DNA of 46,756 nt from Gallionellaceae bacterium (GTDB lineage Bacteria > Pseudomonadota > Gammaproteobacteria > Burkholderiales > Gallionellaceae), in assembly GCA_008080515.1 (NCBI GenBank), contig VIKH01000007.1:18095-64850 (forward strand), in the 5' to 3' direction. Below the pieces are notes generated by a model. It had not been told where the DNA came from, ran no database searches, and saw only the letters and a program-made list of their open reading frames with translations. Positions 28,430 through 44,351 of this stretch are shown piece by piece. Position 1 is the stretch's first letter. Every line of letters begins with the position of its first letter. A program made the translations under genes and the position numbers.

Positions 28430-28657
28430 ATGACAACCAACCTGCTGGACCGCATCACCATCGAACCCGGAAAATGTGGCGGACGACCCTGCATTCGCGG
28501 AATGCGCATTCGTGTCAACGATATTCTTGAAATGCTGGGTGACGGGGTTGACATGAGCGAGATTCTCGCCGATTTTCCAGACCTTGAGCGCGACGACATT
28601 CTTGCCTGCCTGCAATTTGCGGCGCGCAGATCGGATATCGTCCGGCTTGCCGCGTGA
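28430..28657 (+). CDS. DUF433 antitoxin-like protein
   Basis: A 75-residue protein of the DUF433 family: LLDRITIEPGKCGGRPCIRG, then MRIRVNDILEMLGDGVDMSE and DFPDLERDDILACLQFAARR. The fold contains a helix-turn-helix and the family is usually coded just before a PIN-like DUF5615 protein, as here with a 4-base overlap. AGGAGA precedes ATG 28430. Expected role: antitoxin and repressor. Confidence 0.88.
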   Translation: MTTNLLDRITIEPGKCGGRPCIRGMRIRVNDILEMLGDGVDMSEILADFPDLERDDILACLQFAARRSDIVRLAA

Positions 28658-28986
28658 AATTCTGGATAGACGCCCAGCTCCCGCCGCTGCTTGCGGAATG
28701 GCTTTTCGCGCAATTTAATGTTGAAGCGTTTTCCTTGCGGGCTTTGGGGTTGCATGACGCCGCTGATGCGGTAATCTTTCAGGCGGCCCAGCAGCAGGGG
28801 GTGGTTCTCATCAGCAAAGACAGCGACTTCGTAGAACTGCTCTCCCGTTACGGGCCGCCGCCACAGTTGATATGGGTGACCTGCGGCAACGTCACCAACA
28901 GACAGTTGCAAACCGTGTTTGATAAAACTTTCGCCGAGTCGCTGGAGTTGCTATCGGCGGGGCAGGCGATGGTTGAAATCGGCTGA
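28654..28986 (+). CDS. DUF5615 PIN-like toxin
   Basis: A 110-residue protein of the PIN-like DUF5615/COG4634 group: MKFWIDAQLPPLLAEWL (first acidic residue D6), LGLHDAADAVIFQAAQQQGV and VLISKDSDFVELLSRYGPPP with the conserved KDxDF. Such proteins are thought to be RNases held in check by the DUF433 partner. The sequence is complete with no missing acidic residues. Confidence 0.87.
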   Translation: MKFWIDAQLPPLLAEWLFAQFNVEAFSLRALGLHDAADAVIFQAAQQQGVVLISKDSDFVELLSRYGPPPQLIWVTCGNVTNRQLQTVFDKTFAESLELLSAGQAMVEIG

Positions 28987-29043
28987 CATAGGGTTTTTGT
29001 ATCTTAAATCCGAGCCTAGCCCCTTTTGCCGCGCCTTTTGCCG

Positions 29044-29077
29044 CGACCACGGCCCCTTTAATTCGGCCCCTTTAATT
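29044..29077. repeat. 20-bp direct repeat, right copy, plus a partial third copy
   Basis: CGACCACGGCCCCTTTAATT at 29044-29063 matches 28249-28268 exactly; its last 14 bases are repeated in tandem at 29064-29077. Marks the right edge of the DUF433/DUF5615 cassette. Confidence 0.9.
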
Positions 29078-29099
29078 CTGCACACACAAAGATGGTAGT

Positions 29100-29219
29100 A
29101 TGATCCATTATGTGCAAGGATATATCCCATTGGATTCGGACTCCGCTTGGGATTTGCTGCTTCCAGGCTTGAAATCGAAGTATGCCCAGATAGAATTTTC
29201 TACAAAAGAAGGGGGGTGA
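29100..29219 (+). CDS. 39-residue frame upstream of the DUF3883 gene
   Basis: Encodes MIHYVQGYIPLDSDSAWDLL and LPGLKSKYAQIEFSTKEGG, then stops 3 bases before the next start. The composition is protein-like. It may be a small partner protein, or the tail of a longer gene cut off at the repeat, because the frame is open back only to the TAA inside the repeat at 29073. No family recognised. Confidence 0.4.
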   Translation: MIHYVQGYIPLDSDSAWDLLLPGLKSKYAQIEFSTKEGG

Positions 29220-29222
29220 GAC

Positions 29223-30272
29223 ATGAAGCCGCTTCTTGTTCTGCGTGTTGGTTATATGGAACGTTATGAGGGGCCTGCCACGATTACAGGTGGTGGAGCT
29301 TACATTGCAGCAAATGGAGTTGGGGGCGAAGTTTTTAACTTTAAGCCAAGCCGTGGCAAGTGCTATGGATATGCAATGAGCCTACACTTTGCTGGTTTGA
29401 ATCTGCGATTCCTCGACAACACGAGACAGTGGCGGGAGGGTGATGAACTTGCCGATGTCGATATTGTATTCATCGCTCGCAAGCCTGGTGTTGGGCAAGT
29501 TGTTGTTGGCTGGTATCGGGATTCGACAGTCTTCCATAAACAATATCGCGTCCGCCGTGGGGCAATACCGGGAATGAAGGAAACCATGCGCCATTTTCTC
29601 TGTGTGGCGGATGCGGATTCAGTTCAATTGCTTCCCGAGGACGAAAGAACCTTCGTAGTGCCCTATGCACCAGCAGGACACAAAGGGTTCCCCGGGCAAT
29701 CGAATGTATGGTACCCAGAGCATCACGCAAAGCAACCCGGCGTAACGAATTTTATTAAGCGCTTACAAAAGTACATCTCAAATACTTCCGGTGTGCCACT
29801 TGTACCTGATGAAATTGACGAGCCAGCTAGAAGCGGTAAGGGTGGTAGAGGTAGAAAGCCAGATCATGCGCATAATGCGGCTGTTGAATCTGCTGCAGTC
29901 GATGTGGTGTGGAATTACTATGAGGCTGCCGGTTATCGCCTTAAATCGGTAGAGAGTGAGAATGCTGGATGGGATCTAGAGGCACGAAAAGGATTCCAAA
30001 CCCTGCGCATTGAAGTGAAGGGAACATCAGGCTTATCCATTTACTTCGAATTAACTCCGAATGAATACTCGAAACTCAAACAGCATGCTGACCAATATCG
30101 CGTTTGTGTTGTATGTGAAGCACTCCTAACACCTCGAGTGCATGAGCTATTGCCTGAGCAAATCGATAAAGGATGGCACCTCGTTTCGAAGGAGCAGGGC
30201 GTGCATGTCCCATTGATGGAGCGTATTGCCGCCATTGGTGCTGAAATTGCCCGAGAAGGTCAAACAAATTGA
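29223..30272 (+). CDS. DUF3883 (PD-(D/E)XK-like) nuclease-type protein, probable defence gene
   Basis: A 349-residue protein in two parts. The C-terminal region (about 215-345) is a DUF3883/Mrr-like restriction fold: AAGYRLKSVESENAGWDLEA with D251 and LRIEVKGTSG with E264 and K266, matching D...ExK. The N-terminal half (1-170; VLRVGYMERYEGPATITGGG, FNFKPSRGKCYGYAM, FIARKPGVGQVVVGWYRDST) looks like a beta-rich domain that might recognise DNA, possibly modified bases; this is inference. A Gly/Lys-rich linker (ARSGKGGRGRKPDHAHN) joins them. Strong ribosome site AAGGGGGG. AT-richer than neighbours and surrounded by toxin-antitoxin genes, which fits acquired defence. Confidence 0.78.
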   Translation: MKPLLVLRVGYMERYEGPATITGGGAYIAANGVGGEVFNFKPSRGKCYGYAMSLHFAGLNLRFLDNTRQWREGDELADVDIVFIARKPGVGQVVVGWYRDSTVFHKQYRVRRGAIPGMKETMRHFLCVADADSVQLLPEDERTFVVPYAPAGHKGFPGQSNVWYPEHHAKQPGVTNFIKRLQKYISNTSGVPLVPDEIDEPARSGKGGRGRKPDHAHNAAVESAAVDVVWNYYEAAGYRLKSVESENAGWDLEARKGFQTLRIEVKGTSGLSIYFELTPNEYSKLKQHADQYRVCVVCEALLTPRVHELLPEQIDKGWHLVSKEQGVHVPLMERIAAIGAEIAREGQTN

Positions 30273-30911: not shown

Positions 30912-31877
30912 TCAACCCTGTTCTTTTCTCGCAGACATCAGCAGCGCAACGATGCCCAGCGCCACGGCGAACCATAACGTGGCGAGGCGGATCAGCACCG
31001 TTGCGGCCACGGCCTGCGGTTGCGCGACGCCGTTCAGCACCAGCAGCGCCAGCATGGAGGCTTCCACGCCGCCGAGGCCGCCGGGCAGGAAACTGAGCGC
31101 GCCGACCAGCATGGAGAAGGCGTAGATGAACATCGCGGTCTGCAACGAAAGATCGCTGCCGAGCAGGTGCATGATGTAGTAAAACGCCACGCCCTCCGCA
31201 CCCCACGCCACGACGCCGAGCACGATGCCTTGCAGCAGCATGGGCAGGCGGAAGCAGCGCCCGGAGTGCAGCACGATTTCTATGCCGTGGGTGAGGAAGC
31301 GGGCGATGCGGGCGGGCAACCGGTCTTGCGCGATGCGCTCGATCGCTTGCAGCCATCTGGTCTGCTGAAGAACAATCAGGCCGGTCAGGATCAGCCCAGC
31401 CAGGATCATCACCGGCAGTTGGGCCTGCGGGTAAACCCACAGCCCTACCGCCGCCAGCAGCAGCATGCTGATGAAGTTGGAAAGGTGTTCGGAAAAATAG
31501 GCCGCCAGGCTTTCCGGGTAGGAGACGCCGTGCTGCTTGAGGAACACGCTGCGTATCGTCTCGCCGACCTTGACCGGCAGGATGGTAAAGCCGAAACCCG
31601 CGATGTAGATGCGCAGGCTTTCCGGCGCGTACACCCGATGCCCGAGCAGGGCGAGGAATTTCTGCCAGCGCACGAAGCGCAGGCCGTAATTGACCAGCGA
31701 TAGCGCCAGCGCGATGGCCGTACCCGCCAGGCCCACGCGGGCGATGGCTTCCACGACTTCACGCCAGCCGCCCCACAGGGAAAACCCGAGGTAGCCGATC
31801 GCGCTCAGCAGCACGGTCAGCAGCAGCGCGCGAAATCGCCACCCGCTCAGGATGGCGTTTGGCTTGTGTTCGGACAT
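30912..31877 (-). CDS. UPF0104/YbhN-like membrane protein (LPG-synthase TM-type), possible lipid-sugar flippase
   Basis: A 321-residue integral membrane protein with about eight helices. Family hallmarks: NYGLRFVRWQKFLALLG near the start and PGGLGGVEASMLALL near the end, as in the transmembrane half of lysylphosphatidylglycerol synthase and YbhN/AglD proteins. Lacking the synthase domain, such proteins are suspected lipid or lipid-linked sugar transporters. It starts 2 bases after the UbiA-family gene, so it is translated with the DPA pathway; moving the arabinose lipid across the membrane is an attractive but unproven role. Confidence 0.82.
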   Translation of the reverse strand: MSEHKPNAILSGWRFRALLLTVLLSAIGYLGFSLWGGWREVVEAIARVGLAGTAIALALSLVNYGLRFVRWQKFLALLGHRVYAPESLRIYIAGFGFTILPVKVGETIRSVFLKQHGVSYPESLAAYFSEHLSNFISMLLLAAVGLWVYPQAQLPVMILAGLILTGLIVLQQTRWLQAIERIAQDRLPARIARFLTHGIEIVLHSGRCFRLPMLLQGIVLGVVAWGAEGVAFYYIMHLLGSDLSLQTAMFIYAFSMLVGALSFLPGGLGGVEASMLALLVLNGVAQPQAVAATVLIRLATLWFAVALGIVALLMSARKEQG

Positions 31878-31879
31878 GG

Positions 31880-32755
31880 CTACAGGATCAGCCACAGGGT
31901 GGCCGCCAGCCAGCCGACCACCACCCCGATCAGGTGGATGTCGCGCACCAGGTCGTGCGAGGTATCCCCTCCCCCGCGCTGGTGGTGCAGCAGGTAGATG
32001 TAACGGAACACGCCATACATCACGAACGGCACGGTGTAGATCAGGTTGGCCGTGCCGTGGATGCGTATGGTGTCGGGGTTCATGGTGTACAGGCTGTAGC
32101 TCATGATCAGGCCCGCCGCCGTCACGCCTATCATTTTGTCCAGCAGCACCGGGCTGTAATGCTCCAGCACCTTGCGGTGGGCGGCCTTGTTGTCTTCGTT
32201 CAGCGCGATGATTTCCGCGCGCCGCTTGGTGAAACCGAGGAACAGCGTCACCATCAGGCCGCACAGCAGCAGCCATTGCGAGGGCGGAATGCCGACTCCG
32301 AGCGTGCCAGCGAGGATGCGCAGCATGAAGCCGGTGGCGATGATGAAAATATCCAGGATCACCACGTGCTTGAGCCGGAGCGAATAGGCAATGTTCATCA
32401 GGGCATAGGCAACCAGGACAAACAGCACGATCTTCGATGCCGCGAAGGCCAGCGCCAGGCTACATGCGGCGAGCAGCGCGGCAAGCATGGCCGCAGCGGC
32501 CATAGATATGCTACCCGAGGCCAGGGGCCGCTTGCATTTTTTGGGGTGGTGGCGGTCCTGCTCCACATCCACCATGTCGTTGATGGTGTAGATGGCGCTG
32601 GACATCAGGCAGAAAGCGACAAATGCCAGCAAGACATGGGCAACCAGGGATGAATCATGCCAGGCGTGGCCGAACAGCAAGCCGACAAACACGAAGGTGT
32701 TTTTTACCCACTGGTGCGGGCGCATCAGGCGCAACAAATCGAGGAGTTTTTTCAT
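31880..32755 (-). CDS. UbiA-family decaprenyl-phosphate phosphoribosyltransferase
   Basis: Membrane prenyltransferase-fold enzyme of 291 residues. In this branch PRPP is joined to polyprenyl phosphate, giving polyprenylphosphoryl-5-phosphoribose, the first step of the DPA pathway (M. tuberculosis Rv3806c). The motif YTINDMVDVEQDRHHPKKCK (N59, D60, D63, D67) followed by RPLASG corresponds to NDxxDxxxDxxHPxKxxRP of that branch; the later YSLRLKHVVILDIF also fits. ATG overlaps the upstream stop (ATGA at 32757-32754). Context (HAD phosphatase, DprE1, DprE2) strongly supports the call over quinone prenylation. Confidence 0.88.
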   Translation of the reverse strand: MKKLLDLLRLMRPHQWVKNTFVFVGLLFGHAWHDSSLVAHVLLAFVAFCLMSSAIYTINDMVDVEQDRHHPKKCKRPLASGSISMAAAAMLAALLAACSLALAFAASKIVLFVLVAYALMNIAYSLRLKHVVILDIFIIATGFMLRILAGTLGVGIPPSQWLLLCGLMVTLFLGFTKRRAEIIALNEDNKAAHRKVLEHYSPVLLDKMIGVTAAGLIMSYSLYTMNPDTIRIHGTANLIYTVPFVMYGVFRYIYLLHHQRGGGDTSHDLVRDIHLIGVVVGWLAATLWLIL

Positions 32756-34344
32756 CAGTCTGGCTTCATGTAATCAGCGGGTTTCTTTCCGAATATCGCG
32801 CGCGAGCCGAGCAGCCACCAGATAGCCGGAAACCCGACGCAGACAGCCGCAGAAAAGAGGGTGTAAATCTCATCGAGGCCGATGCCGGAAATTGCGCCTT
32901 GCAGCGCAGGCTGCTCGAAATACCGGTTGATGTCAATCTCGAACAACTTGCCGATCCCCGTGGCAATGCCGATTCCGAGCAAGGGGAAGGCCACTCTCCG
33001 GTCGGCTGCAAAAAGCGCCGCCACGACCATCAGGAACAGGTAGTAATAGTTGGACATCTCGGACCACGCAAACGGGATAAACGTCGCCCCCAAGGCGACC
33101 GCCTGCCAGGTTCCGCCCGCTATCACCGCCAGCACAAACAGCGGCAGGCAAACCGCGACGACGGCGATATAGGCGGGCACCACCTTTTTCTTGGCTTCAG
33201 CTTTGGCCTCCTCCCATTTCCAGTACAGGTGGGCTTCCCGGGCGTTAATGTCTATGGTGTTGCGCACCGCCGTATCGGGCCGGTAGGTCAATACCGTGCG
33301 CAGCCCGACATTGTTGGTGCTCACCACCGCAGAGTGCTTGCGGGTGTTATCCGCAAACGCCTGCAGCGAGTCTGTTCCATAGAGAGCAGAGACGGCAACG
33401 AGCAGAACGGCGCCCGATATGGCCATTCCGGCAAAGAACTTCCCGTACGCCAGCATCTGGCCGCGCTGCCGCTTGACCAGCGCATAGAGCAAACCGATGA
33501 AGGGCCCCAGTGCAAATATTGCCGGAAAAACCCGCAACGCCGCCGCGTAGCCCAGCGCCGCTCCGGCCAGCACATAATGCTCTCGTTTCATCGCGCAAAC
33601 CGAAAGCACCGCCATGAAAAACCAGTCGAGGCGCAACACGCCACCGCCCGCCCACGACCAATCTATCCCGCCCGAAGCCGTGCTCGCAATGGCGGCAAAC
33701 GCCGCCACCGGCAACCCGAAGGCCCAGACTATAAGGGCAACGCTACCCAGCAGAAGGATGACATCCAGCAGCACCATCCCTGTTATTGCGGTATCGGACA
33801 ACGCAACCGTGCCAGAAACGAGGCCCCCCGCCAGAATCCACACCGGCGACGGGTTGAACCCGTGGTCAATCTGGGCCAGCTCCCACAAGTCCTGCAAGCG
33901 GTCGCGGAAAAATCCGATGTCGTTCTTGAAAGATTCCCAGCGTGCGGCGGAAAACCGTTCCTTGCAGTAATTCTCTGAAAAGAAATAATTGCGCGAGGCC
34001 ACCAGTTCGTTGGTTTCGAGGTCGCGGATGGTGCGCCGCTTCGCCGCGTGGGACACCGCCTCGTCATCGCTTTCCGCTTCGGCCCTCGCCACGCAGGCAT
34101 ACAGCCGGGTATAGCCGATCTCCGGAAAGTATTTCGCCCCGACGTAGTAGTGAAACAGGTCCCAGTTGTTCGGCTGGGTGGAAAGCGGCTTGAAATTGAG
34201 ATATGACAGCAGCGCAAGCGCCCCCAACACTGCCAGAATGGTGTCGGTAGCTTTTGCGTGCCGGCGCTCGCCATCGCGCTTGTTCAGATATAGCCCGAGC
34301 GAGATGACGATCAGGGAGGCGATCAGGATAGCAAGGTTTAGCAT
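32755..34344 (-). CDS. GT-C membrane glycosyltransferase (GT87/DUF2029-like)
   Basis: A 529-residue protein with ten or more membrane helices. After the first two helices the periplasmic loop holds WDLFHYYVGAKYFPEIGY, the Asp/Tyr signature of GT87-type polyprenyl-phosphosugar glycosyltransferases (the family of AftC and PimE). A further long loop contains NYFFSENYCKERFSAARWES. Within an operon making an arabinose-lipid donor it is a good candidate arabinofuranosyltransferase; acceptor unknown. ATG 34344 is chosen because the open frame upstream lacks membrane character and overlaps the HAD gene. Confidence 0.75.
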   Translation of the reverse strand: MLNLAILIASLIVISLGLYLNKRDGERRHAKATDTILAVLGALALLSYLNFKPLSTQPNNWDLFHYYVGAKYFPEIGYTRLYACVARAEAESDDEAVSHAAKRRTIRDLETNELVASRNYFFSENYCKERFSAARWESFKNDIGFFRDRLQDLWELAQIDHGFNPSPVWILAGGLVSGTVALSDTAITGMVLLDVILLLGSVALIVWAFGLPVAAFAAIASTASGGIDWSWAGGGVLRLDWFFMAVLSVCAMKREHYVLAGAALGYAAALRVFPAIFALGPFIGLLYALVKRQRGQMLAYGKFFAGMAISGAVLLVAVSALYGTDSLQAFADNTRKHSAVVSTNNVGLRTVLTYRPDTAVRNTIDINAREAHLYWKWEEAKAEAKKKVVPAYIAVVAVCLPLFVLAVIAGGTWQAVALGATFIPFAWSEMSNYYYLFLMVVAALFAADRRVAFPLLGIGIATGIGKLFEIDINRYFEQPALQGAISGIGLDEIYTLFSAAVCVGFPAIWWLLGSRAIFGKKPADYMKPD

Positions 34345-34388
34345 AAGCCTTAAGGATTGGGGGTGGCCGCACACCCTGTGCGCCCGGT

Positions 34389-35003
34389 TCAGCCGCTCCC
34401 GAAGTTGCGATAATAAGCATGGTCGGCACTGGCAAGCAATTCCCTGTCGCCCCGGCTGTCGCCGTAGGCGTACAGCGTGTATCCGCTCCTCTGGCCCAGC
34501 AATGCTTCGAGCCGCCTGACTTTCTCGGGGCCGAAACAATTTTCCCCAGACAGGTTGCCGGTGATGCGGCCATCTTCCCCCGTTTCCAGGTGCGAGGTGA
34601 TCGCGTCATCAAAACCGGCTTTCTGCGCCCAGGGCAGCACGTAGAGATCCAGCGAGGCGCTGATGACCACGCAACGGTGCCCCTGCCGCTTGTGCCATGC
34701 CAGCCGTTCCAGCGCCTCGGCGCGCAGCGTCCCGGCCAGTTTCTGCTCCGCGAACTGCACCGCCTTGCGTTGCAGTTCCCCGATCTCCGCGCCGGACAGG
34801 AAGCGCGCGAGCACCCGTTCTTTGGCGATGTCGTTGCGGATCATGCCCAGGCCGTAGCCCGCCAGCGTCGGGGCGAGCACCAGAACATGCCGCACAAATG
34901 CGCCCCATCCGGCGACATGCAGCAGAAACGGAAACAGGGTGTCGCGGCGGGTCAGGGTGCCGTCAAAATCGAAGGCCGCCACCACCGGTTTATTTTCGCT
35001 CAC
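34389..35003 (-). CDS. HAD-IB phosphatase, probable DPA-pathway phosphatase
   Basis: A 204-residue SerB-like HAD phosphatase. Motif I is FDFDGTLTRRDT (D12 nucleophile, D14), motif II is the Ser in VVISAS, and motif III is the late Lys and YGDSRGDRELL. In many Gram-negative DPA loci a HAD protein of this kind accompanies or is fused to the UbiA enzyme and would remove the 5-phosphate from polyprenylphosphoryl-phosphoribose. Its start overlaps the reductase stop by 4 bases. Substrate is inferred from context only. Confidence 0.85.
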   Translation of the reverse strand: MSENKPVVAAFDFDGTLTRRDTLFPFLLHVAGWGAFVRHVLVLAPTLAGYGLGMIRNDIAKERVLARFLSGAEIGELQRKAVQFAEQKLAGTLRAEALERLAWHKRQGHRCVVISASLDLYVLPWAQKAGFDDAITSHLETGEDGRITGNLSGENCFGPEKVRRLEALLGQRSGYTLYAYGDSRGDRELLASADHAYYRNFGSG

Positions 35004-35737
35004 AGCTTCAGCCGCTTGAACACCGGCTCCGGGATGTGCCGGATGATGAGCATGATGTAGCGCCAGAACCAGGGCAGATAAACCACATCCGCCGACTTGT
35101 CGAGCGCGCGCACGATGCGTTCGCCGATGTCCTGCGGGGAGGCGACCAGGAACAGGCCGGGCAAGCCGTAGGTCATGGCGGTATCCACGAAACCGGGCTT
35201 CACGGTGATGACGCGCACGCCGCTGGGGTAGAGGCGGTTGCGCAAGCCTTGCAGGTACAGGCTCAACGCGCCCTTGGCGGCGCCGTACACATAATTGCTC
35301 TGCCTGCCGCGATCTCCCGCCACCGAGGAAATGCCGATGATGAAGCCGCTTTTCAGCGGCTCGAAATAATTGGCGCAGTGGCTCAAAATGGATGCCGCGC
35401 CGGTGAAATTGGCGGCGATGACTTTCTCGCCCACTCTGAAATCGCGCGCCGCCATCTGGTCGCCGAGGTAACCGAAGGCCAGCACCACGCCGCGAAGATT
35501 CGGCATGGCCGCGACCACGGATTGAAAAAACGCCTCGTGGGTCGCGGTCGCTTCCGCATCGAATTCCCCGTGTCGCACCTCGACGCCGTAGCGCAGCCGC
35601 AAATCTGCGGCGATGCGACGCAATTCGTCGGCGTCGCGCGAAGCCAGGTACAGGGCATATCCTTGCCCGGCAAAGGCGGCGGCAGTGGCGCGCGCGATGG
35701 CAGATGTCGCGCCCAGTATCAGTACGGATTCACTCAT
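35000..35737 (-). CDS. dprE2: DprE2-like short-chain reductase (decaprenylphosphoryl-2-keto-erythropentose reductase)
   Basis: NAD(P)H-dependent SDR of 245 residues. Nucleotide site LILGATSAIARATA (6-19), NAG-like VLAFGYLGD, catalytic Ser in GISSVAG (137-138) and Y151xxxK155 in SNYVYGAAKGAL. The segment ALSLYLQGLRNRLYPSGVRV and the C-terminal hydrophobic helix (WFWRYIMLIIRHIPEPVFKR) are as in mycobacterial DprE2. It would finish the epimerisation begun by DprE1, yielding decaprenylphosphoryl-arabinose. Confidence 0.87.
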   Translation of the reverse strand: MSESVLILGATSAIARATAAAFAGQGYALYLASRDADELRRIAADLRLRYGVEVRHGEFDAEATATHEAFFQSVVAAMPNLRGVVLAFGYLGDQMAARDFRVGEKVIAANFTGAASILSHCANYFEPLKSGFIIGISSVAGDRGRQSNYVYGAAKGALSLYLQGLRNRLYPSGVRVITVKPGFVDTAMTYGLPGLFLVASPQDIGERIVRALDKSADVVYLPWFWRYIMLIIRHIPEPVFKRLKL

Positions 35738-35790
35738 AAAACACCTGAAAATTCAAATTCAACAACAGGCCCCAGGCTCATCAGGAGAGC

Positions 35791-35818
35791 GTAGGTCGGG
35801 CTGAAAAGCCCGACCTAC
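35791..35818. repeat. 12-bp perfect stem hairpin with GAAA loop
   Basis: GTAGGTCGGGCT and AGCCCGACCTAC around GAAA, between the acyltransferase and the reductase genes. There is no T-run on either side, so it is more likely a dispersed intergenic repeat than an intrinsic terminator, though it could slow transcription within the operon. Confidence 0.85.
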
Positions 35819-35864
35819 AACACATTGATTCCGCATGGCAGGTTCATCAATCCGCAATCCGGGT

Positions 35865-37010
35865 TCAATGCGGTTTAGCAGCAGAAGTTCTAGCAAAATA
35901 CTTGTCTTTTGAATTGATGAATCGTTTCTCCATCAACTCATAACTCACCATACTGATGATAACCGTAATCAAAAGGGTTGCGGATGCGCGCACAATTTCC
36001 GGGGAGCGGTGCATCGTGGAATATACCAGCCAGAGAACCGGATAATGAAACACATACAGGCCGTAGCTTATGGTACCAAGATAAACCAGCAAGGGGTTCT
36101 CGAATAGCGCGGGCATGAAAGTTTTGTTCCTGATCTGGACCAGCATATATCCCAGCACCAGAGTCACTGCCGAATACCCCCAGACATATTTGTACGAGTC
36201 CTTCATGAACGGCCCATAGCCAAGCTCGCCCAGGTGAAGCTGCCCCGCCGACAGCCAGCTCGTCACAAAACCCAGCGCGAGCACCAGCAATAGGGACGCC
36301 CACACCAGATAACCCGGCCTGCTTTTCCCATACAGGGCAAAGAAGCCTCCTATTGCAAAAGCATCAATATGCGAAAAAGGCAGGATGTAAATGACAAGAT
36401 CCGTCTGGCGAAGCACGGGGAGCATATTCGCATCTACAGCCACCGCCAATAAGAAGCGCGTCAACGGCCCTGCCACGATAACCAGCAACAGGAATTTCTT
36501 CAGGTGGCGGGCCGGAATAAAAAATATCGCCAGCGGCCATACCAGATAGAACTGCTCCTCCACCGCCAGCGACCAGAAGTGCGTAGCCAGGAACGAGTGC
36601 CTGAAATAATTGCTGACGTGATAAAAGTCGTAGGTGTAGGTCACCGTCCAGGGCAATTGCTTGATGAACTGGTTCAAATCCGCGGCCAGCCTGGTATTGC
36701 CGCCGGAATAGGCAGGCTGCGATAAAAGCCAGAAGGATATGGCCGCAACGATAAGCAGGTATGCGTAGTAAAGCGGGAATATCCTGAGCGCGCGCCTGCC
36801 ATAGAAATGAATAAAAAAATCTCTTTTATTCAAACTGGACTTCATCTCAACCAGTATGGGCGTCAGCAAAAACCCGGACAGGACAAAAAAAGCCTCAACA
36901 CCGAGATAGCCGCCCTGGACATCGAAACGGCTGGCGCCAGGGTCGCCCAAATGAAACAGGAAAATGGCAAAGAATGCCAGCGCCCTGAATGAGGTCAGCC
37001 CTTGGTTCAT
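35865..37010 (-). CDS. Acyltransferase-3 (OafA-type) membrane O-acyltransferase
   Basis: A 381-residue protein with about ten helices that transfers acetyl or similar groups to sugars. From ATG 37010: MNQGLTSFRALAFFAIFLFH with the family R and H, GGYLGVEAFFVLSGFLLTPI, then RRALRIFPLYY and FWSLAVEEQFYLVWPLAIFF with the conserved SLAVEEQ. The C-terminal soluble SGNH domain of larger OafA proteins is absent. It lies between dprE1 and dprE2 with 100- and 127-base gaps, unlike the overlapped neighbours, and appears AT-richer, so it may have been inserted later. It may decorate the arabinose-containing glycan. Confidence 0.88.
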   Translation of the reverse strand: MNQGLTSFRALAFFAIFLFHLGDPGASRFDVQGGYLGVEAFFVLSGFLLTPILVEMKSSLNKRDFFIHFYGRRALRIFPLYYAYLLIVAAISFWLLSQPAYSGGNTRLAADLNQFIKQLPWTVTYTYDFYHVSNYFRHSFLATHFWSLAVEEQFYLVWPLAIFFIPARHLKKFLLLVIVAGPLTRFLLAVAVDANMLPVLRQTDLVIYILPFSHIDAFAIGGFFALYGKSRPGYLVWASLLLVLALGFVTSWLSAGQLHLGELGYGPFMKDSYKYVWGYSAVTLVLGYMLVQIRNKTFMPALFENPLLVYLGTISYGLYVFHYPVLWLVYSTMHRSPEIVRASATLLITVIISMVSYELMEKRFINSKDKYFARTSAAKPH

Positions 37011-37110
37011 ACTGCTGACCCTGCACGACCGTATGCGGCTGCGCGAGCTCCTTTCATACTGCAATGCCCGGTCAAACACCAGCTCTTGGCCGCTCTGTTC
37101 ATCATAAAAA

Positions 37111-38460
37111 TCATGCCATGTCGCCGTCTACCCCCAGGCGGCGCGACAGGCTCGAGCTGAACACGTTTTTCGGATCAACCACATTCTTGATCTTGAGCCA
37201 TTCACCGTAGCGCGGATACATGGCGCGAAACGACTCGGCGGAGAGCCGCGCATCCTTGGCGAGGTAGATGCGCCCGCCACACTTCAGAACTATTTGGTCC
37301 AACTCGTCCAGCAACTCGAACAAGCCAGTATCGCGAATCGGCAAATCCAGCGCCAGGGTGTAACCGGCCATGGGGAAAGACAGCAGCCCTTTGCCTTGCG
37401 CGCCGAACCGTTTCAACACGGCCAGGAAAGAAGCGCGGCGGCTATCGGCCAATTTCCCCAGCAACGCCTTGATGCCATCGAATGCGGTTGCACCCGGGAT
37501 CACGCACTGGTACTGCACGAAGCCGCGCTTGCCGTACATGCGGTTCCAGTTGCCGATCGCATCCAGCGGGTAAAAATACGGGTCGTAACCACACAGGAAA
37601 GGCTCCCGTTTTTTTCCTTCCCGCGCGTAATACCATGCGTTGAAAGCACCGATGCTGGCCGGGTTCAGCGCAATGGCCGGAAAATCGAAGGGGATGGCGC
37701 GGCTGCGCCCCGGCTTGGGTGAGTTGTCCAGTCCTGCCGGAAGATCTTCGCTTGCCGCATGGTGCCCGAACATGGCGATGCCCCGCCCCAGGTGCTGCCC
37801 GGTCGCCAGACTGTCGAGCCAGGCAACGGTATAGCGGTCATCCATGGCCGGATCTTCCAGCAACTGGAACAATTGCTCCAGATTGCCGGCCGCGCGGTGA
37901 TGCACCTTCATGTAGCCGTTCTGGATCGGGATGAGCTTGAGCGTCACCTCGCCGATGATGCCGGTCAGCCCCATGCCGCCCACCGTCGCCCAGAACAGCG
38001 CCGCGTTTTCGGCAGGGGAACACGGTAGCCGCCTGCCGTCGGCCAGGATCATTTCCAAGCCGAGAATGTGATCGCAGAAAGAGCCGTCGCGGTGGTGGTT
38101 CTTGCCGTGTACATCCGCCGCTACGCAGCCGCCCAGAGAAACGAATTTCGTCCCCGGCGTAACCGGCAGGAACCAGCCCTTGGGCACGATCACACCGAGA
38201 ATCTCTGCCAAAGTGACGCCCGCTTCGGCGCGCAGGATACCCTGCTCCGCATCCAGATCGAGCAGGCGGTTGACGCGCTCGGTCAGCAGCACCCGCCCAT
38301 CCTCGTTCAGCGCCGCATCGCCGTAGCTGCGCCCCTGCCCCCGCACGATCAGCCCGCCATCAAACGGGCGCAGGTCGGCGTAGCGTTCCGGGCGCTCCAG
38401 CTCGCAGGATTGCACCGGATAGCGCCCCCACCCGGAAACGGGCGCGACTCGCGTACCCAT
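37111..38460 (-). CDS. dprE1: DprE1-like decaprenylphosphoryl-ribose 2'-oxidase
   Basis: FAD-dependent oxidase, 449 residues, the first half of the ribose-to-arabinose epimerisation. FAD-binding VRGQGRSYGDAALNEDGRVL, PVTPGTKFVSLGGCVAADVH with the HGKNHH motif (118-123), and FWATVGGMGLTGIIGEVTL. The substrate domain has FYPLDAIGNWNRMYGKRGFV followed by QYQCVIP, and IYLAKDARLSAESFRAMYPR with K402 matching mycobacterial K418. The position of the benzothiazinone-reactive Cys387 is A370 (GYTLALDLPIRD). ATG 38460 overlaps the stop of the upstream glycosyltransferase (ATGA). Confidence 0.93.
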   Translation of the reverse strand: MGTRVAPVSGWGRYPVQSCELERPERYADLRPFDGGLIVRGQGRSYGDAALNEDGRVLLTERVNRLLDLDAEQGILRAEAGVTLAEILGVIVPKGWFLPVTPGTKFVSLGGCVAADVHGKNHHRDGSFCDHILGLEMILADGRRLPCSPAENAALFWATVGGMGLTGIIGEVTLKLIPIQNGYMKVHHRAAGNLEQLFQLLEDPAMDDRYTVAWLDSLATGQHLGRGIAMFGHHAASEDLPAGLDNSPKPGRSRAIPFDFPAIALNPASIGAFNAWYYAREGKKREPFLCGYDPYFYPLDAIGNWNRMYGKRGFVQYQCVIPGATAFDGIKALLGKLADSRRASFLAVLKRFGAQGKGLLSFPMAGYTLALDLPIRDTGLFELLDELDQIVLKCGGRIYLAKDARLSAESFRAMYPRYGEWLKIKNVVDPKNVFSSSLSRRLGVDGDMA

Positions 38461-39962
38461 CAGCCGCGCTCCTCCGGAAAGTATTTCTCGCAAAAATAGC
38501 AGGGCGCGTGCGGCAGGAACGCCGGGATGTTGTAATACTTGTCCTTGATCGGTTTCAACACGAGATTTCTGTACCTGGCGTAATCGAAGCCGTAACCTAA
38601 CACGAAATAAAAACTTACGCCGCGCAGTTCGAACTGCCTGCTTTCCGCGCGGTTGAAGAACGGTTGATACTGGGACATGTCGGGCGCGGATTTTTTTACG
38701 ATCAGGATATTGCGCCCGGCAAACTGCCGGAAATCGGTAACCATGTCGTCCTGCCGTGCATGCAGCGAACCTTCGCCGAACACGAAAAAATTTTTGCCGT
38801 AATGGTAAGAAATGATGGCGGCAGGCGTGTAGCCATCCGCCGCAAGCAGGAATTGCTGCTGCTCGTAAGGCCGCACTTTCTCGACGATCTCATCGTTCTC
38901 GAACATGAACACGATGCCGTCGTAGAGCTTGGTGTTTTTCCAGGTTTCCATCGGCAGAAAAGCGATGAGCGCGATTGCCGCCAGGTGTGCGGCGCTGAAC
39001 CAGACTGTGAAATTGAGCGACTTGACCAACTCTTCGCGCGTCAGGAGATGGTGCAGCAGCAGATACAGAAAGGGGTAAAACGCCAGCACCCAGTGCAGGC
39101 CGATCACCTTTTTGATGGACAGCAGCGCGAATACCGCCATCGGCAACAGGAACGCGCAAGCGAACAGCCTGAAGTCATCGCGCCGGATTTTTTGCCGGAG
39201 CCCCGCGCGGTGCCTGAACAGGTAGTAAATGACCGGCGGGGTCATCAGATAAATTTGCGTACCGAGGTAAATGGCGACCTTGCCCGGCGAGAGTTGCTCG
39301 CCTTCGTTCCGGGTGTAGAAATTGAACAGGATGTTGTCCCAGCAATGGGTGTAGTTCCAGTACAGGTTGAGCAACACGAACGGCAGCGCCGCCAGGAACA
39401 GCAAGGCAAGCCCGCGCATTTTCTGCCTGCTCCCGGGCGAAAAAACAAAATACGCCAGATAGCCGAGCCCCAGCAGCACCGCAAAATATTTCGACAGGAA
39501 AGCCAGCCCGAAAAAAACGCCGGACAGCGCATACCATGCAGAACTATTGAGTTGCAGCGCCCGATATAGCGATGCGGCGGACAGAAAAACAAACAGGATC
39601 AGCGGCGTGTCGGTGGTGACCAGAACATTCATCAGATTCAGCGGCGCAACCAGAAACAGCATCGCCACCAGCGCCGCCCGAGCCTCGTCGTGCTGCTTGA
39701 GCAACCGGTAGATGCCGATGCCGATCACCGTGGAAAGCAGGATGGCGGGGAGGCGCAGCACCACTTCCGAACTGCCAAAATACAGCAACAACTGGAGCAA
39801 CCAGCCCACCATCGGCGGGTGGTCGTAAAAACCGAAATCCGGGTGTTTTGCCCAGACGACGAAATAGGCCTCGTCGCCCGACATGGGGAGCACCCACGCG
39901 AGCAGAAGCTTGATTGCCAGCGTGGTCAGCAGTGCGAATTTGAAGGTTGGCGTCAGGCCCAT
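38460..39962 (-). CDS. GT-C membrane glycosyltransferase (PMT/ArnT-like, GT83-like)
   Basis: A 500-residue protein with a long series of membrane helices and a periplasmic C-terminal part of about 150 residues. The first loop carries SGDEAYFVVWAKHPDFGFYD and HPPMVGWLLQLL, the DEAYY...YDHPP signature of PMT_2/ArnT-type enzymes that take sugar from polyprenyl phosphate. First gene of the DPA operon, coupled to dprE1. Together with the GT87-like protein it gives two possible users of the arabinose lipid. ATG 39962 is preferred over 40016, whose extra residues are not hydrophobic and have no ribosome site. Confidence 0.82.
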   Translation of the reverse strand: MGLTPTFKFALLTTLAIKLLLAWVLPMSGDEAYFVVWAKHPDFGFYDHPPMVGWLLQLLLYFGSSEVVLRLPAILLSTVIGIGIYRLLKQHDEARAALVAMLFLVAPLNLMNVLVTTDTPLILFVFLSAASLYRALQLNSSAWYALSGVFFGLAFLSKYFAVLLGLGYLAYFVFSPGSRQKMRGLALLFLAALPFVLLNLYWNYTHCWDNILFNFYTRNEGEQLSPGKVAIYLGTQIYLMTPPVIYYLFRHRAGLRQKIRRDDFRLFACAFLLPMAVFALLSIKKVIGLHWVLAFYPFLYLLLHHLLTREELVKSLNFTVWFSAAHLAAIALIAFLPMETWKNTKLYDGIVFMFENDEIVEKVRPYEQQQFLLAADGYTPAAIISYHYGKNFFVFGEGSLHARQDDMVTDFRQFAGRNILIVKKSAPDMSQYQPFFNRAESRQFELRGVSFYFVLGYGFDYARYRNLVLKPIKDKYYNIPAFLPHAPCYFCEKYFPEERG

Positions 39963-40152: not shown

Positions 40153-41424
40153 TTATCCCAGCATGTCTGCCCAGATGTTCTGTGCCCAGCCTTCTGCGTA
40201 CATGCCCTCGATATCGGTGGCTGCGCTCGACAGGCCGCCGCTGTCTGGTACCGAGGCCATGGTTTTGCCAGCGGTATCGTATTTGTAGATTGCCGAAACA
40301 TGCACTGCCTGGGTTTCGTTCACGAAGCTGTAACAGGTGTTAGCGATCACTGGAGCGGCGTAGACCGCCTCGCCATGCATCAGCGCTACTACCGCAGCAG
40401 CACACACCTTGGCGTGCTGGTTTGCTACGTGGCCGGATTTCGGCATCTTGGGTGCGGCGAGAATCGCATCTCCCAGCACATGGATGTTTTTATGCGCCAC
40501 TGATTCGAAGGTGAGGTAATCCACTCCGCACCAGCGGTTGTTGGCGGTGATCAGACCGGCGCCGGCGGCGATTTTCCCTGCCCGCTGCGGTGGAATCACG
40601 TTAAGCACATTAGCCTTGACATCCTCGAACTGCAGCTTGGCAGTAAGGGTCTTGACATCCACGTCCACCAGTTCGCTGTTGGCGCGGTATTCCACCATGC
40701 CGGGGTACAAATCTTTCCACGCCTTGGTGAACAGGCCTTTCTTCGCCACGACTTCCTCGTTCGCATCAAGGATCAGTACCTTGGATTTGGGTTTATGCTT
40801 ACTGAGGTAGGCGGCTACAAGGCAGGCGCGCTCATAAGGGCCGGGTGGGCAACGGAAGGGGGCCTTGGGGATCGAAATCGCAAACACTCCGCCATCCGGC
40901 ATGGCTTCAAGCTGCTTGCGCAATGCCACGGTCTGCGGGCCCGCCTTCCAGGCATGCAGAACATTCTCCTGGGCTGCAGCATTGCTCAAGCCGGGGATGG
41001 TGTCGTACATGAAATCTATGCCCGGAGCAACAATCAGGCGGTCGTAGCTAAGAGCGGTGCCACGCGCAAGGGTGACAGTGCGCTTGGCTGCATCAATTGC
41101 GGTTACTTCATCATTGATAACCTTTACCCCGTACTTCGACCCCAGCTTGTTGTAGCTGACCGTCAGATCCTTGATGCTTTTCCCCCCCGACAGCACAAGG
41201 TTGCTCAACGGACAGGAAACGAAATCGGTGTTGCGCTCAACCAGGGTCACTTCGATATCCGGCCCCCACATGCGCACATATTTTGCCGCAGTCGCTCCCG
41301 CGTAACCGCCCCCTACCACCACCACGCGGCCTATGCTTTTGCCACCGCCCACCGAAGCGCAACCGGGTATCGCGGCCAGCGCGGCAGTTGCCGAGGCCAG
41401 TTTGATAAATTCTCGTCTTTCCAT
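40153..41424 (-). CDS. fccB: Flavocytochrome c sulfide dehydrogenase, flavoprotein subunit
   Basis: Oxidises sulfide to sulfur in the periplasm and passes electrons to cytochrome c. 423 residues with a Tat signal (RREFIKLASATAALAAIPGC), FAD-binding VVVVGGGYAGATAAKYVRMW, Cys in DFVSCPLSNLVLSGG and CGVDYLTFESVAHKNIHVLG closing the FAD site. The redox Cys pair is SCPLS and the later NRWCGVDY. C-terminal FCSD-flavin-binding region with ANTCYSFVNETQAVHVSAIY. Cytochrome partner 31 bases upstream. Confidence 0.93.
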   Translation of the reverse strand: MERREFIKLASATAALAAIPGCASVGGGKSIGRVVVVGGGYAGATAAKYVRMWGPDIEVTLVERNTDFVSCPLSNLVLSGGKSIKDLTVSYNKLGSKYGVKVINDEVTAIDAAKRTVTLARGTALSYDRLIVAPGIDFMYDTIPGLSNAAAQENVLHAWKAGPQTVALRKQLEAMPDGGVFAISIPKAPFRCPPGPYERACLVAAYLSKHKPKSKVLILDANEEVVAKKGLFTKAWKDLYPGMVEYRANSELVDVDVKTLTAKLQFEDVKANVLNVIPPQRAGKIAAGAGLITANNRWCGVDYLTFESVAHKNIHVLGDAILAAPKMPKSGHVANQHAKVCAAAVVALMHGEAVYAAPVIANTCYSFVNETQAVHVSAIYKYDTAGKTMASVPDSGGLSSAATDIEGMYAEGWAQNIWADMLG

Positions 41425-41455
41425 GATTTCCTCCTATTGAGCGCGTCAGCCGGCG

Positions 41456-41761
41456 CTATTTCTGTTTGGAATAGTAATCAGCAATCAGCGCGATCTGATC
41501 GTCGCTATAGCCCTTGGCGATCTGGTGCATCAAAGTCGCGGGCCGCTTACCGGTCTTGAATTCCTGCATGACCTTGACGATGTAAGTCTTGTCCATGCCG
41601 GCCATCGCCGCCATGCCTGGCACGGCATGACCATTGGTGCCGTGGCATGCCGCACACGCTGCCGCCAGATTGCGGCCACCCACATCATCCGCCGCCTGAA
41701 CCGCTCCGGCGCAAAACGCCAGCACACCCGAAACGCATATTGCCGATGCTATTTTTTTCAT
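41456..41761 (-). CDS. Monohaem c-type cytochrome, partner of FccB
   Basis: A 101-residue exported cytochrome. Signal peptide MKKIASAICVSGVLAFCAGA ends at AVQA. The haem site is CAACH in LAAACAACHGTNGH, with a probable axial Met in KRPATLMHQIAKGYSDDQI. Diheme FccA proteins are twice this size, so this is the single-haem type. Gene order cytochrome-flavoprotein with a 31-base gap fits one operon. ATG 41761 is preferred over an upstream in-frame ATG at 41776; it follows AGGAGATC. Confidence 0.9.
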   Translation of the reverse strand: MKKIASAICVSGVLAFCAGAVQAADDVGGRNLAAACAACHGTNGHAVPGMAAMAGMDKTYIVKVMQEFKTGKRPATLMHQIAKGYSDDQIALIADYYSKQK

Positions 41762-41918
41762 GATCTCCTCCTGCAATAAGTGGAAATTGCCCCTACAACC
41801 GGAAATGATTTTCCGCTGTTAATTCGGCAGCGTCAAGGCAGTTTGCAATAATGTTCGCAAAGTATAAATGTGGTGGTAAGCTGCATTCGCAATCCCGACC
41901 AATTCAGAAGGAATAATC

Positions 41919-42512: not shown

Positions 42513-42687
42513 TGCCGCTGCTGGGGAATGCCGGGCGAAGATTAATCGAGCCCGCTCCATTGGCTTTGCAGGCTGACCAAATGGACGACCGGTTGTTGCG
42601 GCCATTATTTATGCGCGGGCTTTGAAGCAGCGCTGGCCTCCCCCCACCTCTGACACGCTGGAAGATTTAATTGCAGTCGCATTATTA

Positions 42688-43950
42688 ATGCATAGCATAG
42701 AAACTCTTAATAAGAATATCGCAATTAAACCTTTCAAAATGCGCAAAACCGATCTTCATCCCACGTTGCAGCGAAGCTGCGTGCCGGTACCGCAACGTTC
42801 GGGATGCTTTGCAGTTATACCGCCGCCAGCGCCTGACACCGTCAATGTCCAGTCCTGTCATGGCTTGCTGATGCTCGCCCATAGAGAACTGGAACTGCTC
42901 ACCAACGCGATCCGCAGAAACCCGCGCGATGCCGAGCTGCTGATGTACATGCTGAACCGTCGCGAAGCGGTTGACAGCAGCCAGATCGAAGGTACGCACA
43001 CCGGCTTTGATGGCCTGCTGATACACGAGATCGAAGCGGGAACGGAAGATGAGATCACCGATAGCGATGCCAGCGCGACCCTCAACTATGTACGCGCCTT
43101 CATGATGGGCTCGCGCGAAGTCGAAGCACGCAGCCAGGCAGCGCTGGACTTGAACCTCATCCGCAACCTTCACACACGACTGATGGCGGGACAATCCCAA
43201 TACGCGCCGGGACAATGGCGCGACCGGCAGAACTACATCGGCCTGCGCATGGAAACGGCCCGCTACATCCCGCCGCCGCCCGGCGAAGTGCCGCGACTGA
43301 TGGATGATCTGCTCGGCCTGCTGCAATACGAACCGGATGGCGTGGCGGTAAGCTCCATCCTGCTGCGCGCCGCAATCGCCCATGTACAATTTGAAGCGAT
43401 CCACCCCTTCCTCGACGGCAACGGCCGCACCGGTCGCCTGCTCCTACCGCTGATGCTCAAGGCCGAGGGCAAGCCCCCCATCCATCTCGCCTCGTTCCTG
43501 AAACTGCGCCAGCAGGAATACTACGACGCGCTATTGCAAGTGCAGACTAGGCTGGAATGGGAACCGTGGATATGCCTCTTTCTGGAAAGCGTGATCGCCT
43601 CCTGCCGCCACACCACACAATTGTTAGATGACATGCGCGCCATCCACCAACGCTGGCAAAGCCTGCTGACCCAACAAGGCAAGCGCCGCCACGCCACCAT
43701 CTGGAAGGTCGGCGGACTGCTGCTGGGACAGCCCGTGGTAACGATCAACTTGATCGCCCGGCGCCTTGGTGTCACCTTCCCGGCAGCCAACGATGCCGTC
43801 ACCGAACTGGTTGCGCTCGACATCCTGCGCCCCGCCACCCAGCAACGACGTCACCGCGTTTTCCATGCCCACGAAGTAATGAACGTGCTTTACAGCGGCC
43901 TTGATGCCGTGATCGAAGATGTCGGACGGCACACCAACATCAATACGTGA
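42688..43950 (+). CDS. Fic-domain AMP-transferase-type protein with C-terminal winged helix
   Basis: A 420-residue class II Fic protein. The inhibitory helix SSQIEG (97-102) precedes the Fic core, and the catalytic motif HPFLDGNGRTGRLL (H239) is intact, so AMPylation of a target protein is expected and self-inhibited. N-terminal Fic_N region with NRREAVDSSQIEGTHTGFDG; the C-terminal 80 residues (INLIARRLGVTFPAANDAVT, ELVALDIL) form a winged-helix DNA-binding domain. Several starts are possible (TTG 42622, ATG 42688, ATG 42739) and none has a good ribosome site. Overlaps the HTH remnant by 32 bases. Confidence 0.85.
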   Translation: MHSIETLNKNIAIKPFKMRKTDLHPTLQRSCVPVPQRSGCFAVIPPPAPDTVNVQSCHGLLMLAHRELELLTNAIRRNPRDAELLMYMLNRREAVDSSQIEGTHTGFDGLLIHEIEAGTEDEITDSDASATLNYVRAFMMGSREVEARSQAALDLNLIRNLHTRLMAGQSQYAPGQWRDRQNYIGLRMETARYIPPPPGEVPRLMDDLLGLLQYEPDGVAVSSILLRAAIAHVQFEAIHPFLDGNGRTGRLLLPLMLKAEGKPPIHLASFLKLRQQEYYDALLQVQTRLEWEPWICLFLESVIASCRHTTQLLDDMRAIHQRWQSLLTQQGKRRHATIWKVGGLLLGQPVVTINLIARRLGVTFPAANDAVTELVALDILRPATQQRRHRVFHAHEVMNVLYSGLDAVIEDVGRHTNINT

Positions 43951-44205
43951 GGCGCTGATTGAATCGGAAGCTCAAGAAATTGCGCGCCGCCACGGCATAT
44001 CGCAAAGCGCCTACGCCAAACAGGAAGCCAGAGAACCGGTAGGAAGGCTACGCGCGAGAAGATCGCCGCGGCGTTGGGTATTGCGGCAGAGCAGTTGGCG
44101 GTTTGGAAAATCAATTGCGATGCTGACCCGTTTTTGCGTTTTTGGTGTCTGGTGGGTGAAGTGATGGCCACAAAGAAACTGTGGCCTGTCTCCGATTGTT
44201 TGTAG
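43919..44205 (+). pseudogene. HTH (XRE-type) regulator, frameshifted
   Basis: The first frame from ATG 43919 gives EALIESEAQEIARRHGISQS and AYAKQEAREP; from about 44041 the matching continuation KATREKIAAALGIAAEQLAV is in another frame, which runs to a stop at 44203-44205 (ending KKLWPVSDCL). Joined, they read as a short HTH domain of the antitoxin type. One or two bases lost or gained near 44035 explain the break. It may have been the cognate regulator of the Fic gene it overlaps. Confidence 0.6.
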
Positions 44206-44251
44206 CGAAACCAGCCCCACTCAATTTATTGTCCATCATAAGGTTAAAACC

Positions 44252-44328
44252 ACCGGCTTTAGCCGGTCAGCTTTAGCCTTGCAAATTCAGCAAGAGTGGA
44301 ATAACAGAATCAACCTGCTTTAGCAGGT
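44252..44328. repeat. Two hairpins with identical TTTA loops, REP or IS200/IS605-end type
   Basis: ACCGGC-TTTA-GCCGGT (44252-44267) and ACCTGC-TTTA-GCAGGT (44313-44328) are 45 bases apart, 24 bases before the Mrr-type gene. Paired hairpins with a conserved loop are usual at IS200/IS605 ends and in REP elements; no transposase is present. GCTTTAGCCTTGC between them echoes the motif. Confidence 0.75.
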
Positions 44329-44351
44329 GGTAGTTAAGTTAGGACGGCACC

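Follow-up and report, generated by a model that had tools for sequence, protein, structure and literature searches.

Gene content and layout

The window analyzed here is a 46,756-nucleotide stretch of contig VIKH01000007.1 from a Gallionellaceae bacterium (assembly GCA_008080515.1, forward-strand positions 18,095 to 64,850), and its minus strand carries, from 39962 to 30912, eight genes in the order GTC1, DprE1, AT3, DprE2, HAD, GTC2, UbiA, and YbhN (Table 1). The original prediction, made from the sequence alone, described seven of these as a complete locus for lipid-linked D-arabinofuranose (DPA). All seven open reading frames (ORFs) were found at the predicted places on the minus strand, and the original observation is confirmed, with corrections. 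An eighth gene, encoding an acyltransferase-3 between DprE1 and DprE2, had been overlooked; and the word "complete" suits donor synthesis, but transport and transfer can only be proposed.

Table 1. Features of the proposed arabinofuranose operon and its intergenic space
Feature	Coordinates	Strand	Size and remarks
GTC1: PMT_2/ArnT-like GT-C glycosyltransferase	38460..39962	-	500 aa; proposed lipid-phosphate-arabinofuranose transferase
DprE1-like FAD oxidase	37111..38460	-	449 aa; match to solved DprE1, NCBIfam DprE1
AT3: acyltransferase-3 (OafA-like) membrane protein	35865..37010	-	381 aa; Acyl_transf_3, 96 bits
REP-like (repetitive extragenic palindromic) palindrome	35791..35818		between AT3 and DprE2; strand not assigned
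DprE2-like SDR (short-chain dehydrogenase/reductase) reductase	35000..35737	-	245 aa; PRK07102 and DprE2 models
HAD-IB phosphatase, GTG start	34389..35003	-	204 aa; TIGR01490; proposed to remove the 5'-phosphate
GTC2: weakly GT87-like multi-pass protein	32755..34344	-	529 aa; occupies the variable slot
UbiA-type polyprenyl-phosphate phosphoribosyltransferase	31880..32755	-	291 aa; NCBIfam, 8j8j, motifs
YbhN/MprF-type (LPG_synthase_TM) protein	30912..31877	-	321 aa; proposed translocase for lipid-linked pentofuranose

As predicted, DprE2 and HAD overlap by 4 nt (GTGA, 35000-35003) and UbiA is separated from YbhN by a 2-nt gap (31877-31880), but the junctions at 38460 (GTC1/DprE1) and 32755 (GTC2/UbiA) are 1-nt TGATG overlaps. 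The wider spaces are those from HAD to GTC2 (44 bases), from DprE1 to AT3 (100 bases), and from AT3 to DprE2 (127 bases), the last of which contains the REP-like palindrome. The pattern of this palindrome has three exact matches in the genome, as against none for the reversed control. A terminator-like hairpin followed by a T run at about 40130-40100, noted by eye and unscored, separates the operon from the flavocytochrome c gene upstream.

Putative donor-synthesis enzymes

The operon products were scanned against Pfam at E ≤ 0.001. The UbiA-type protein matches Pfam UbiA with 104 bits and exceeds the cut-off of the NCBIfam decaprenyl-phosphate phosphoribosyltransferase model (277 bits; cut-off, 234), while its best solved relative is the phosphoribosyltransferase DPPRS (8j8j, 1.9e-36). 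A quinone or haem prenyltransferase was rejected on this match and on scores of 38 bits on the proteobacterial ubiA_proteo model and 44 bits on the haem o synthase model cyoE, as against 277. The motif named in the original assignment is present (N59-D60-x-x-D63-x-x-x-D67, H70-P71-x-K73), as is R178/E181, and all these residues are invariant in the seven aligned sequences, including that of the window. Their spacing (loop II NDxxDxxxD, loop IV R..E) is that of the residues named for Citrobacter ORF15, that is, N247/D248/D251/D255 and R366/E369 (PMC11127046).

The phosphatase assignment holds as well, the HAD protein matching Pfam HAD (134 bits) and TIGR01490 (163 bits; cut-off, 98). For the oxidase (Pfam FAD_binding_4/ALO), solved DprE1 is the sole close relative in the PDB with 316 bits, the next family being xylitol oxidase with 51 bits, and on these scores an unrelated enzyme was rejected. 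K402 aligns with Lys418 of Mycobacterium tuberculosis DprE1, which we take to be the catalytic lysine, and is invariant in the same number of sequences (7/7). At Cys387 of that protein, presumably the benzothiazinone site, the window's DprE1 has an alanine (residue 370) while retaining the aligned lysine.

For the oxidase and reductase the original labels stand at the level of family, but not at that of equivalog, and two scores here weigh against the proposed pathway: the oxidase reaches 428 bits on the NCBIfam DprE1 model (equivalog cut-off, 500) and the reductase 184 bits on the DprE2 model (equivalog cut-off, 250). The latter protein matches Pfam adh_short, and among the 25 NCBIfam models shown only the general SDR model PRK07102 exceeds its cut-off (310 bits; cut-off, 267), with the DprE2 model ranking second. 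A DprE1 scan of named genomes yielded at least 580 confirmed relatives, of which the best 80 loci are those to which all later counts over 80 refer. In 76 of them the DprE2 profile finds a match no more than 6 kb from DprE1, though this profile could pick up further SDRs too.

Overall, the UbiA and DprE1 scores far favour the mycobacterial enzymes over the quinone, haem, and unrelated oxidase families named as refuting placements in the original prediction. The interpretation as a putative DPA donor pathway is supported, because of close homology and conserved motifs.

Conservation of the locus

UbiA (E ≤ 1e-40) is found in 32 of the 159 genomes of the family. In 25 of these 32, the window's own genome included (G000; 2.9 Mb in 183 contigs, 90.5% complete), DprE1-DprE2-HAD-(slot)-UbiA-YbhN occurs on one contig in this order, counting G013, where YbhN extends past the contig end, and G009, where DprE1 is split in two pieces; such retention of order indicates that the locus is more than chance. 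Among the others, G006 and G020 have the parts divided over two contigs; the G027 contig breaks off within UbiA, and that assembly yielded no close DprE1; and G023, G159, G175, and G182 have differing arrangements. In the G182 locus (L088), UbiA (55%) and HAD occur with no DprE1, DprE2, or YbhN match nearby; this is perhaps a ribofuranose-type relative.

A constant core for making the donor encloses a position, between HAD and UbiA, whose membrane proteins vary. About half of the 25 genomes have nothing in this variable slot; in the rest it is occupied by one or two multi-pass proteins outside the core: GTC2 in the three genus members (G001 has a TPR (tetratricopeptide repeat)-bearing protein in addition), proteins with TPRs, or proteins lacking any Pfam match. 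The likeness of these other slot proteins to GT-C enzymes was judged by inspection only.

A betaproteobacterial host, as first proposed, agrees with a 2-kb stretch that is identical between a locus of the same family (L068, G100) and that of the Nitrosomonadales bacterium isolate nzgw562 (L098), from an order of Betaproteobacteria. The rarity that the original prediction implied did not hold up, since the 80 DprE1 loci span over a dozen phyla and DprE1 relatives (E ≤ 1e-60) are present on 62 plasmid records. In the DprE1 tree, the window's protein belongs to a starred set of 12 rows drawn from the window's family plus three proteobacterial loci outside it. Recent transfer from Actinobacteria is unsupported, given this grouping with proteobacteria in a tree that, drawn from the best 80 of at least 580, has few actinobacteria.

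Parts of the locus look interchangeable: a separate HAD, a long UbiA frame, or a DUF212 protein; YbhN or GtrA; and several multi-pass transferase-like proteins. UbiA frames of at least 438 aa account for 37 of 58, four of which match the HAD profile, and a DUF212 protein is present in 4 of the 80 loci (one confirmed by Pfam).

Proposed pathway

We consider it likely, judging by sequence, that the operon makes lipid-phosphate-linked D-arabinofuranose for use outside the cytoplasm, the lipid carrier probably being undecaprenyl. The HAD protein would take off the 5'-phosphate, DprE1 would oxidize C2, and DprE2 would carry out the inverting reduction that yields polyprenyl-phosphate-D-arabinofuranose. 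The YbhN-type protein would then provide passage of the lipid across the inner membrane, and GTC1, with its predicted ArnT/PMT fold, would place arabinofuranose on a periplasmic acceptor. GTC2 may attach another sugar or form a second arabinofuranose linkage; in this species AT3 may O-acylate the product. For GTC1 and YbhN the proposed roles draw on co-occurrence, position, and fold; those of GTC2 and AT3, and the acceptor, we infer.

Putative glycosyltransferases and acyltransferase

Two GT-C glycosyltransferases had been predicted, and GTC1 fits this description well. It matches Pfam PMT_2 (102 bits), and its predicted model is closest to ArnT and the protein mannosyltransferases (PMTs), closer to these than to Emb or Aft. 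Against ArnT, the model has a similar fold over about 424 residues at 13-16% identity. GTC1 has no NCBIfam match at E ≤ 0.001, so that the model for ArnT, the 4-amino-4-deoxy-L-arabinose (L-Ara4N) transferase, is not reached, and searches for solved relatives by sequence gave none for the profile at E ≤ 1 and one chance match at 0.41 for GTC1 alone. GTC1 is present in 19 of the 159 family genomes, every one of which belongs to the 32 that carry UbiA (hypergeometric p 2e-16, with no correction for kinship). In G012 it lies on a separate contig (C33 as against C67), so co-occurrence there is not mere linkage. A relative is also present in the GtrA-type DPA locus of Undibacterium (L127). Weighing against the proposed pathway, G076 has the core with no GT-C-like gene seen beside it. 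The GTC1 copy of the sister genome G001 (G001:C9:16429-17928) has one in-frame stop and may be broken or misread.

GTC2 answers the prediction less well, being weakly GT87-like. Read from the ATG at 34344, it scores 24.3 bits (E 3.1e-5), just under the Pfam gathering score of 25; read from 34389, with 15 more residues, it has no Pfam match at E ≤ 0.001. The G002 copy has no GT87 match at E ≤ 0.1, and two of seven aligned members match this family. Apart from the three genus members, relatives were found in 4 other genomes among the 369 searched. Solved relatives were absent at E ≤ 1 for the sequence alone and at E ≤ 5 for the profile, and a single-sequence structure model with a predicted local distance difference test (pLDDT) score of 42 was not used.

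AT3 matches a PHROG O-acetyltransferase at 3.2e-42, in addition to the Pfam family of Table 1. Its position between DprE1 and DprE2 is peculiar to the window's genome among the family loci read, although a distant acyltransferase-3 relative (23%) follows YbhN in G106. Relatives of 66-73% identity occur at other sites in G034 (three copies), G085, G105, and G126, with none in G001 or G002. Two of the G034 copies lie in one cluster (L193; G034:C7:1-12000) together with a third, distant acyltransferase-3 gene, a GTC2 relative (48%), two multi-pass proteins with TPRs, and a small protein that looks GtrA-like on inspection. This make-up is in keeping with a common pool of genes for surface glycans.

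The acceptor may be lipopolysaccharide or another envelope glycolipid, GTC1 acting in an ArnT-like manner but with D-arabinofuranose. We regard this as quite possible, if somewhat short of a reading to rely on: the fold does not fix the acceptor, the genome already has an ArnT-like gene (232 bits) near an ArnB-like one (321 bits; L203, G000:C64:3001-12386), both below cut-off, and no O-antigen family was matched by Pfam in ten flanking ORFs scanned, other flanking ORFs being unscanned.

The YbhN-type protein and GtrA

The YbhN-like membrane protein is as originally described, with matches to PF03706 LPG_synthase_TM (151 bits, read from 31880; cut-off, 33) and to the flippase-like model TIGR00374 (80 bits; cut-off, 43). 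On the MprF model (cut-off, 600) it reaches 40 bits, and sequence searches gave no solved relatives at E ≤ 1. None of the eight operon products matches a MATE model in Pfam at E ≤ 0.001.

YbhN and GtrA were scored within 6 kb of DprE1, using a GtrA profile rebuilt from locus neighbours, of which two pass the Pfam threshold; GtrA and two Wzx seeds from the window's genome gave no matches in the loci, and MATE is therefore unscored there. The two types do not occur together in these loci. Across the 80 loci, YbhN is present in 10, GtrA in 24, both in none, and neither in 46 (Fisher p 0.028); the 55 loci that have a same-strand UbiA give 9, 21, 0, and 25 (p 0.009). YbhN sits between UbiA and DprE1 in L125, L160, and L167, and GtrA does so in 16 loci, though not always adjoining both. 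YbhN-type loci are also found in Bacillota (L115, L125), Rhodospirillales (L139, L167), and Alcaligenaceae (L160).

The DprE1 tree of 92 rows (93 chosen, with L084 dropped because its DprE1 is split, and a doubtful long row, L093, included) requires at least five changes between YbhN and GtrA type, three of them forced by starred branches. A stricter tree of 91 rows, made without L084 and L093 and counting only GtrA matches above 30 bits, requires at least three changes, two of them forced. Such a result agrees with a swap that happened more than once, but it does not amount to 34 independent events.

Several points weigh against YbhN as the translocase. Fisher's test ignores kinship, and p rises to 0.09 for the 76 loci without the window's near relatives (L098-L101), to 0.07 for the 52 UbiA-bearing loci without L098, L099, and L101, and to 0.056 for all 80 loci when the weak GtrA matches in L137, L164, and L177 (19-22 bits) are taken as none. 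The 46 loci with neither type imply that the translocase need not be local. Bulk-lipid roles have been suggested for free YbhN proteins (PMC11980842). One may accordingly ask whether YbhN has another role here, such as in phospholipid balance, with the donor crossing by a flippase encoded elsewhere; the genome does have one GtrA-domain match (C182) and two Polysacc_synt matches. We hold this to be a plausible though lesser prospect, in view of a YbhN that adjoins UbiA in the conserved core, takes the GtrA position in the three loci named above, and is never found with GtrA.

The literature offers some precedent for a translocase. MprF moves many lipids in vitro without an energy source, and its transport domain has been likened to YbhN (PMC11980842), and for GpgF of Pseudomonas aeruginosa a role as a YbhN-type glycolipid flippase has been predicted (PMC12713373). 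Among flippases, PMC11127046 describes MATE and SMR types; words that begin with MprF or LPG are absent from the main text of that paper. No YbhN-type translocase for DPA appears in the literature searched; supplementary Fig. S11 of that paper, outside this scope, may show one.

We tentatively suggest, as an idea that could well prove wrong, that YbhN/MprF-type proteins form a separate class of polyprenyl-phosphate-pentofuranose translocases, repeatedly swapped with GtrA/SMR or MATE, and that the family pairs a constant arabinofuranose-donor core with exchangeable GT-Cs and acyltransferases, thereby varying the surface glycan between species.

Flanking genes and remaining alternatives

Directly upstream of the operon, at 40153-41776 on the minus strand, are a flavocytochrome c sulfide dehydrogenase flavoprotein and a small cytochrome c, which suggest sulfide oxidation in the lineage. 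Farther out, the operon is flanked by genes for DUF5615, a NOV_C-domain protein, a Fic protein, and an Mrr-type restriction endonuclease (28654-30272 and 42622-46616, both on the plus strand). The G+C content is lower (about 0.49-0.52) at 29-31 kb and 44-46 kb. These flanking stretches are possibly defence or toxin-antitoxin islands.

The original prediction held that nothing here reveals the acceptor, and we agree: no acceptor gene was recognized in the flanks of the relatives' loci read, where the neighbours, by inspection, are SppA, SelD, GT9, FbaA, and Pyk. An acceptor of the kind used by Pseudomonas paraeruginosa, a type IV pilin, with one GT-C of this genome serving as a TfpW-like pilin arabinosyltransferase, seems unlikely. 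The sole PF00114 pilin match (C171) has no GT-C-like neighbour in 14.6 kb, going by a crude ORF list inspected by eye, in an assembly that is 90% complete over 183 contigs, other pilin families being unsearched. Least probable is a lipid-linked sugar other than arabinofuranose, whether ribofuranose or a different epimer. UbiA and HAD alone, both present in G182 with no DprE1 or DprE2 nearby, would yield ribofuranose, but here DprE1, with its conserved K402, and DprE2 share the operon, and homologues of DprE1/E2 are tied to Araf-containing glycans and an ORF13 homologue to Xylf (xylofuranose) (PMC11127046).

Returning to the preferred reading, a DPA operon with a YbhN-type translocase, the donor pathway is known in kind, and what appears new, against the literature searched, is a YbhN-type protein in the place of GtrA as the likely membrane-crossing protein. 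The apparent swap is open to a clean cross-complementation test, and the variable slot should let donor steps be separated from acceptor steps. The locus brings a betaproteobacterial family, a fifth or so of whose sampled genomes carry UbiA, into the likely range of D-arabinofuranose, and GTC1, DprE1, UbiA, and YbhN offer a marker set for predicting this sugar in Gram-negative envelopes.

Comparison with known systems

D-Arabinofuranose is best known from mycobacterial cell walls. The mycobacterial DPA pathway (Rv3806c, Rv3807c, DprE1, DprE2, Rv3789, and Emb/Aft; PMC11127046) shares with the window the UbiA, DprE1, and DprE2 homologues and GT-Cs of the same overall fold. The window differs in having HAD in place of an unrelated phosphatase and YbhN in place of an SMR-type protein, and the GTC1 model is nearer to ArnT and PMT than to Emb/Aft.

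Both the pathway and three-component pentofuranose glycosylation have been published (PMC11127046), and, judged by gene family, the present locus contains the PPPRS (the phosphoribosyltransferase), phosphatase, flippase, and GT-C of such a system, the last two in putative roles. Citrobacter youngae O1/O2 shares a UbiA-fold phosphoribosyltransferase dependent on phosphoribosyl pyrophosphate (PRPP), a HAD-family phosphatase, a separate flippase, and a GT-C, with epimerase genes setting the pentose. In Citrobacter, however, HAD is fused to the phosphoribosyltransferase, whereas in the window it is a separate protein; an SDR epimerase and MATE stand where the window has DprE1/DprE2 and the YbhN-type protein; and the window adds a second GT-C-like gene and an acyltransferase (PMC11127046).

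ArnT, the lipid A L-Ara4N transferase, shares its fold with the GTC1 model and uses a lipid-phosphate-pentose donor, as GTC1 is proposed to do, but the low identity given above and the separate ArnT-like gene of the window's genome set the two apart. For P. paraeruginosa, D-arabinofuranose on pilins has been published (PMC12369383, PMC11841053). Like the window, this system has Gram-negative DPA donor genes in one block; unlike the window, its transferase TfpW goes with pilA (PMC12369383, PMC11841053). Two other Pseudomonas loci (L128, L136) carry GtrA together with a DUF212 protein.

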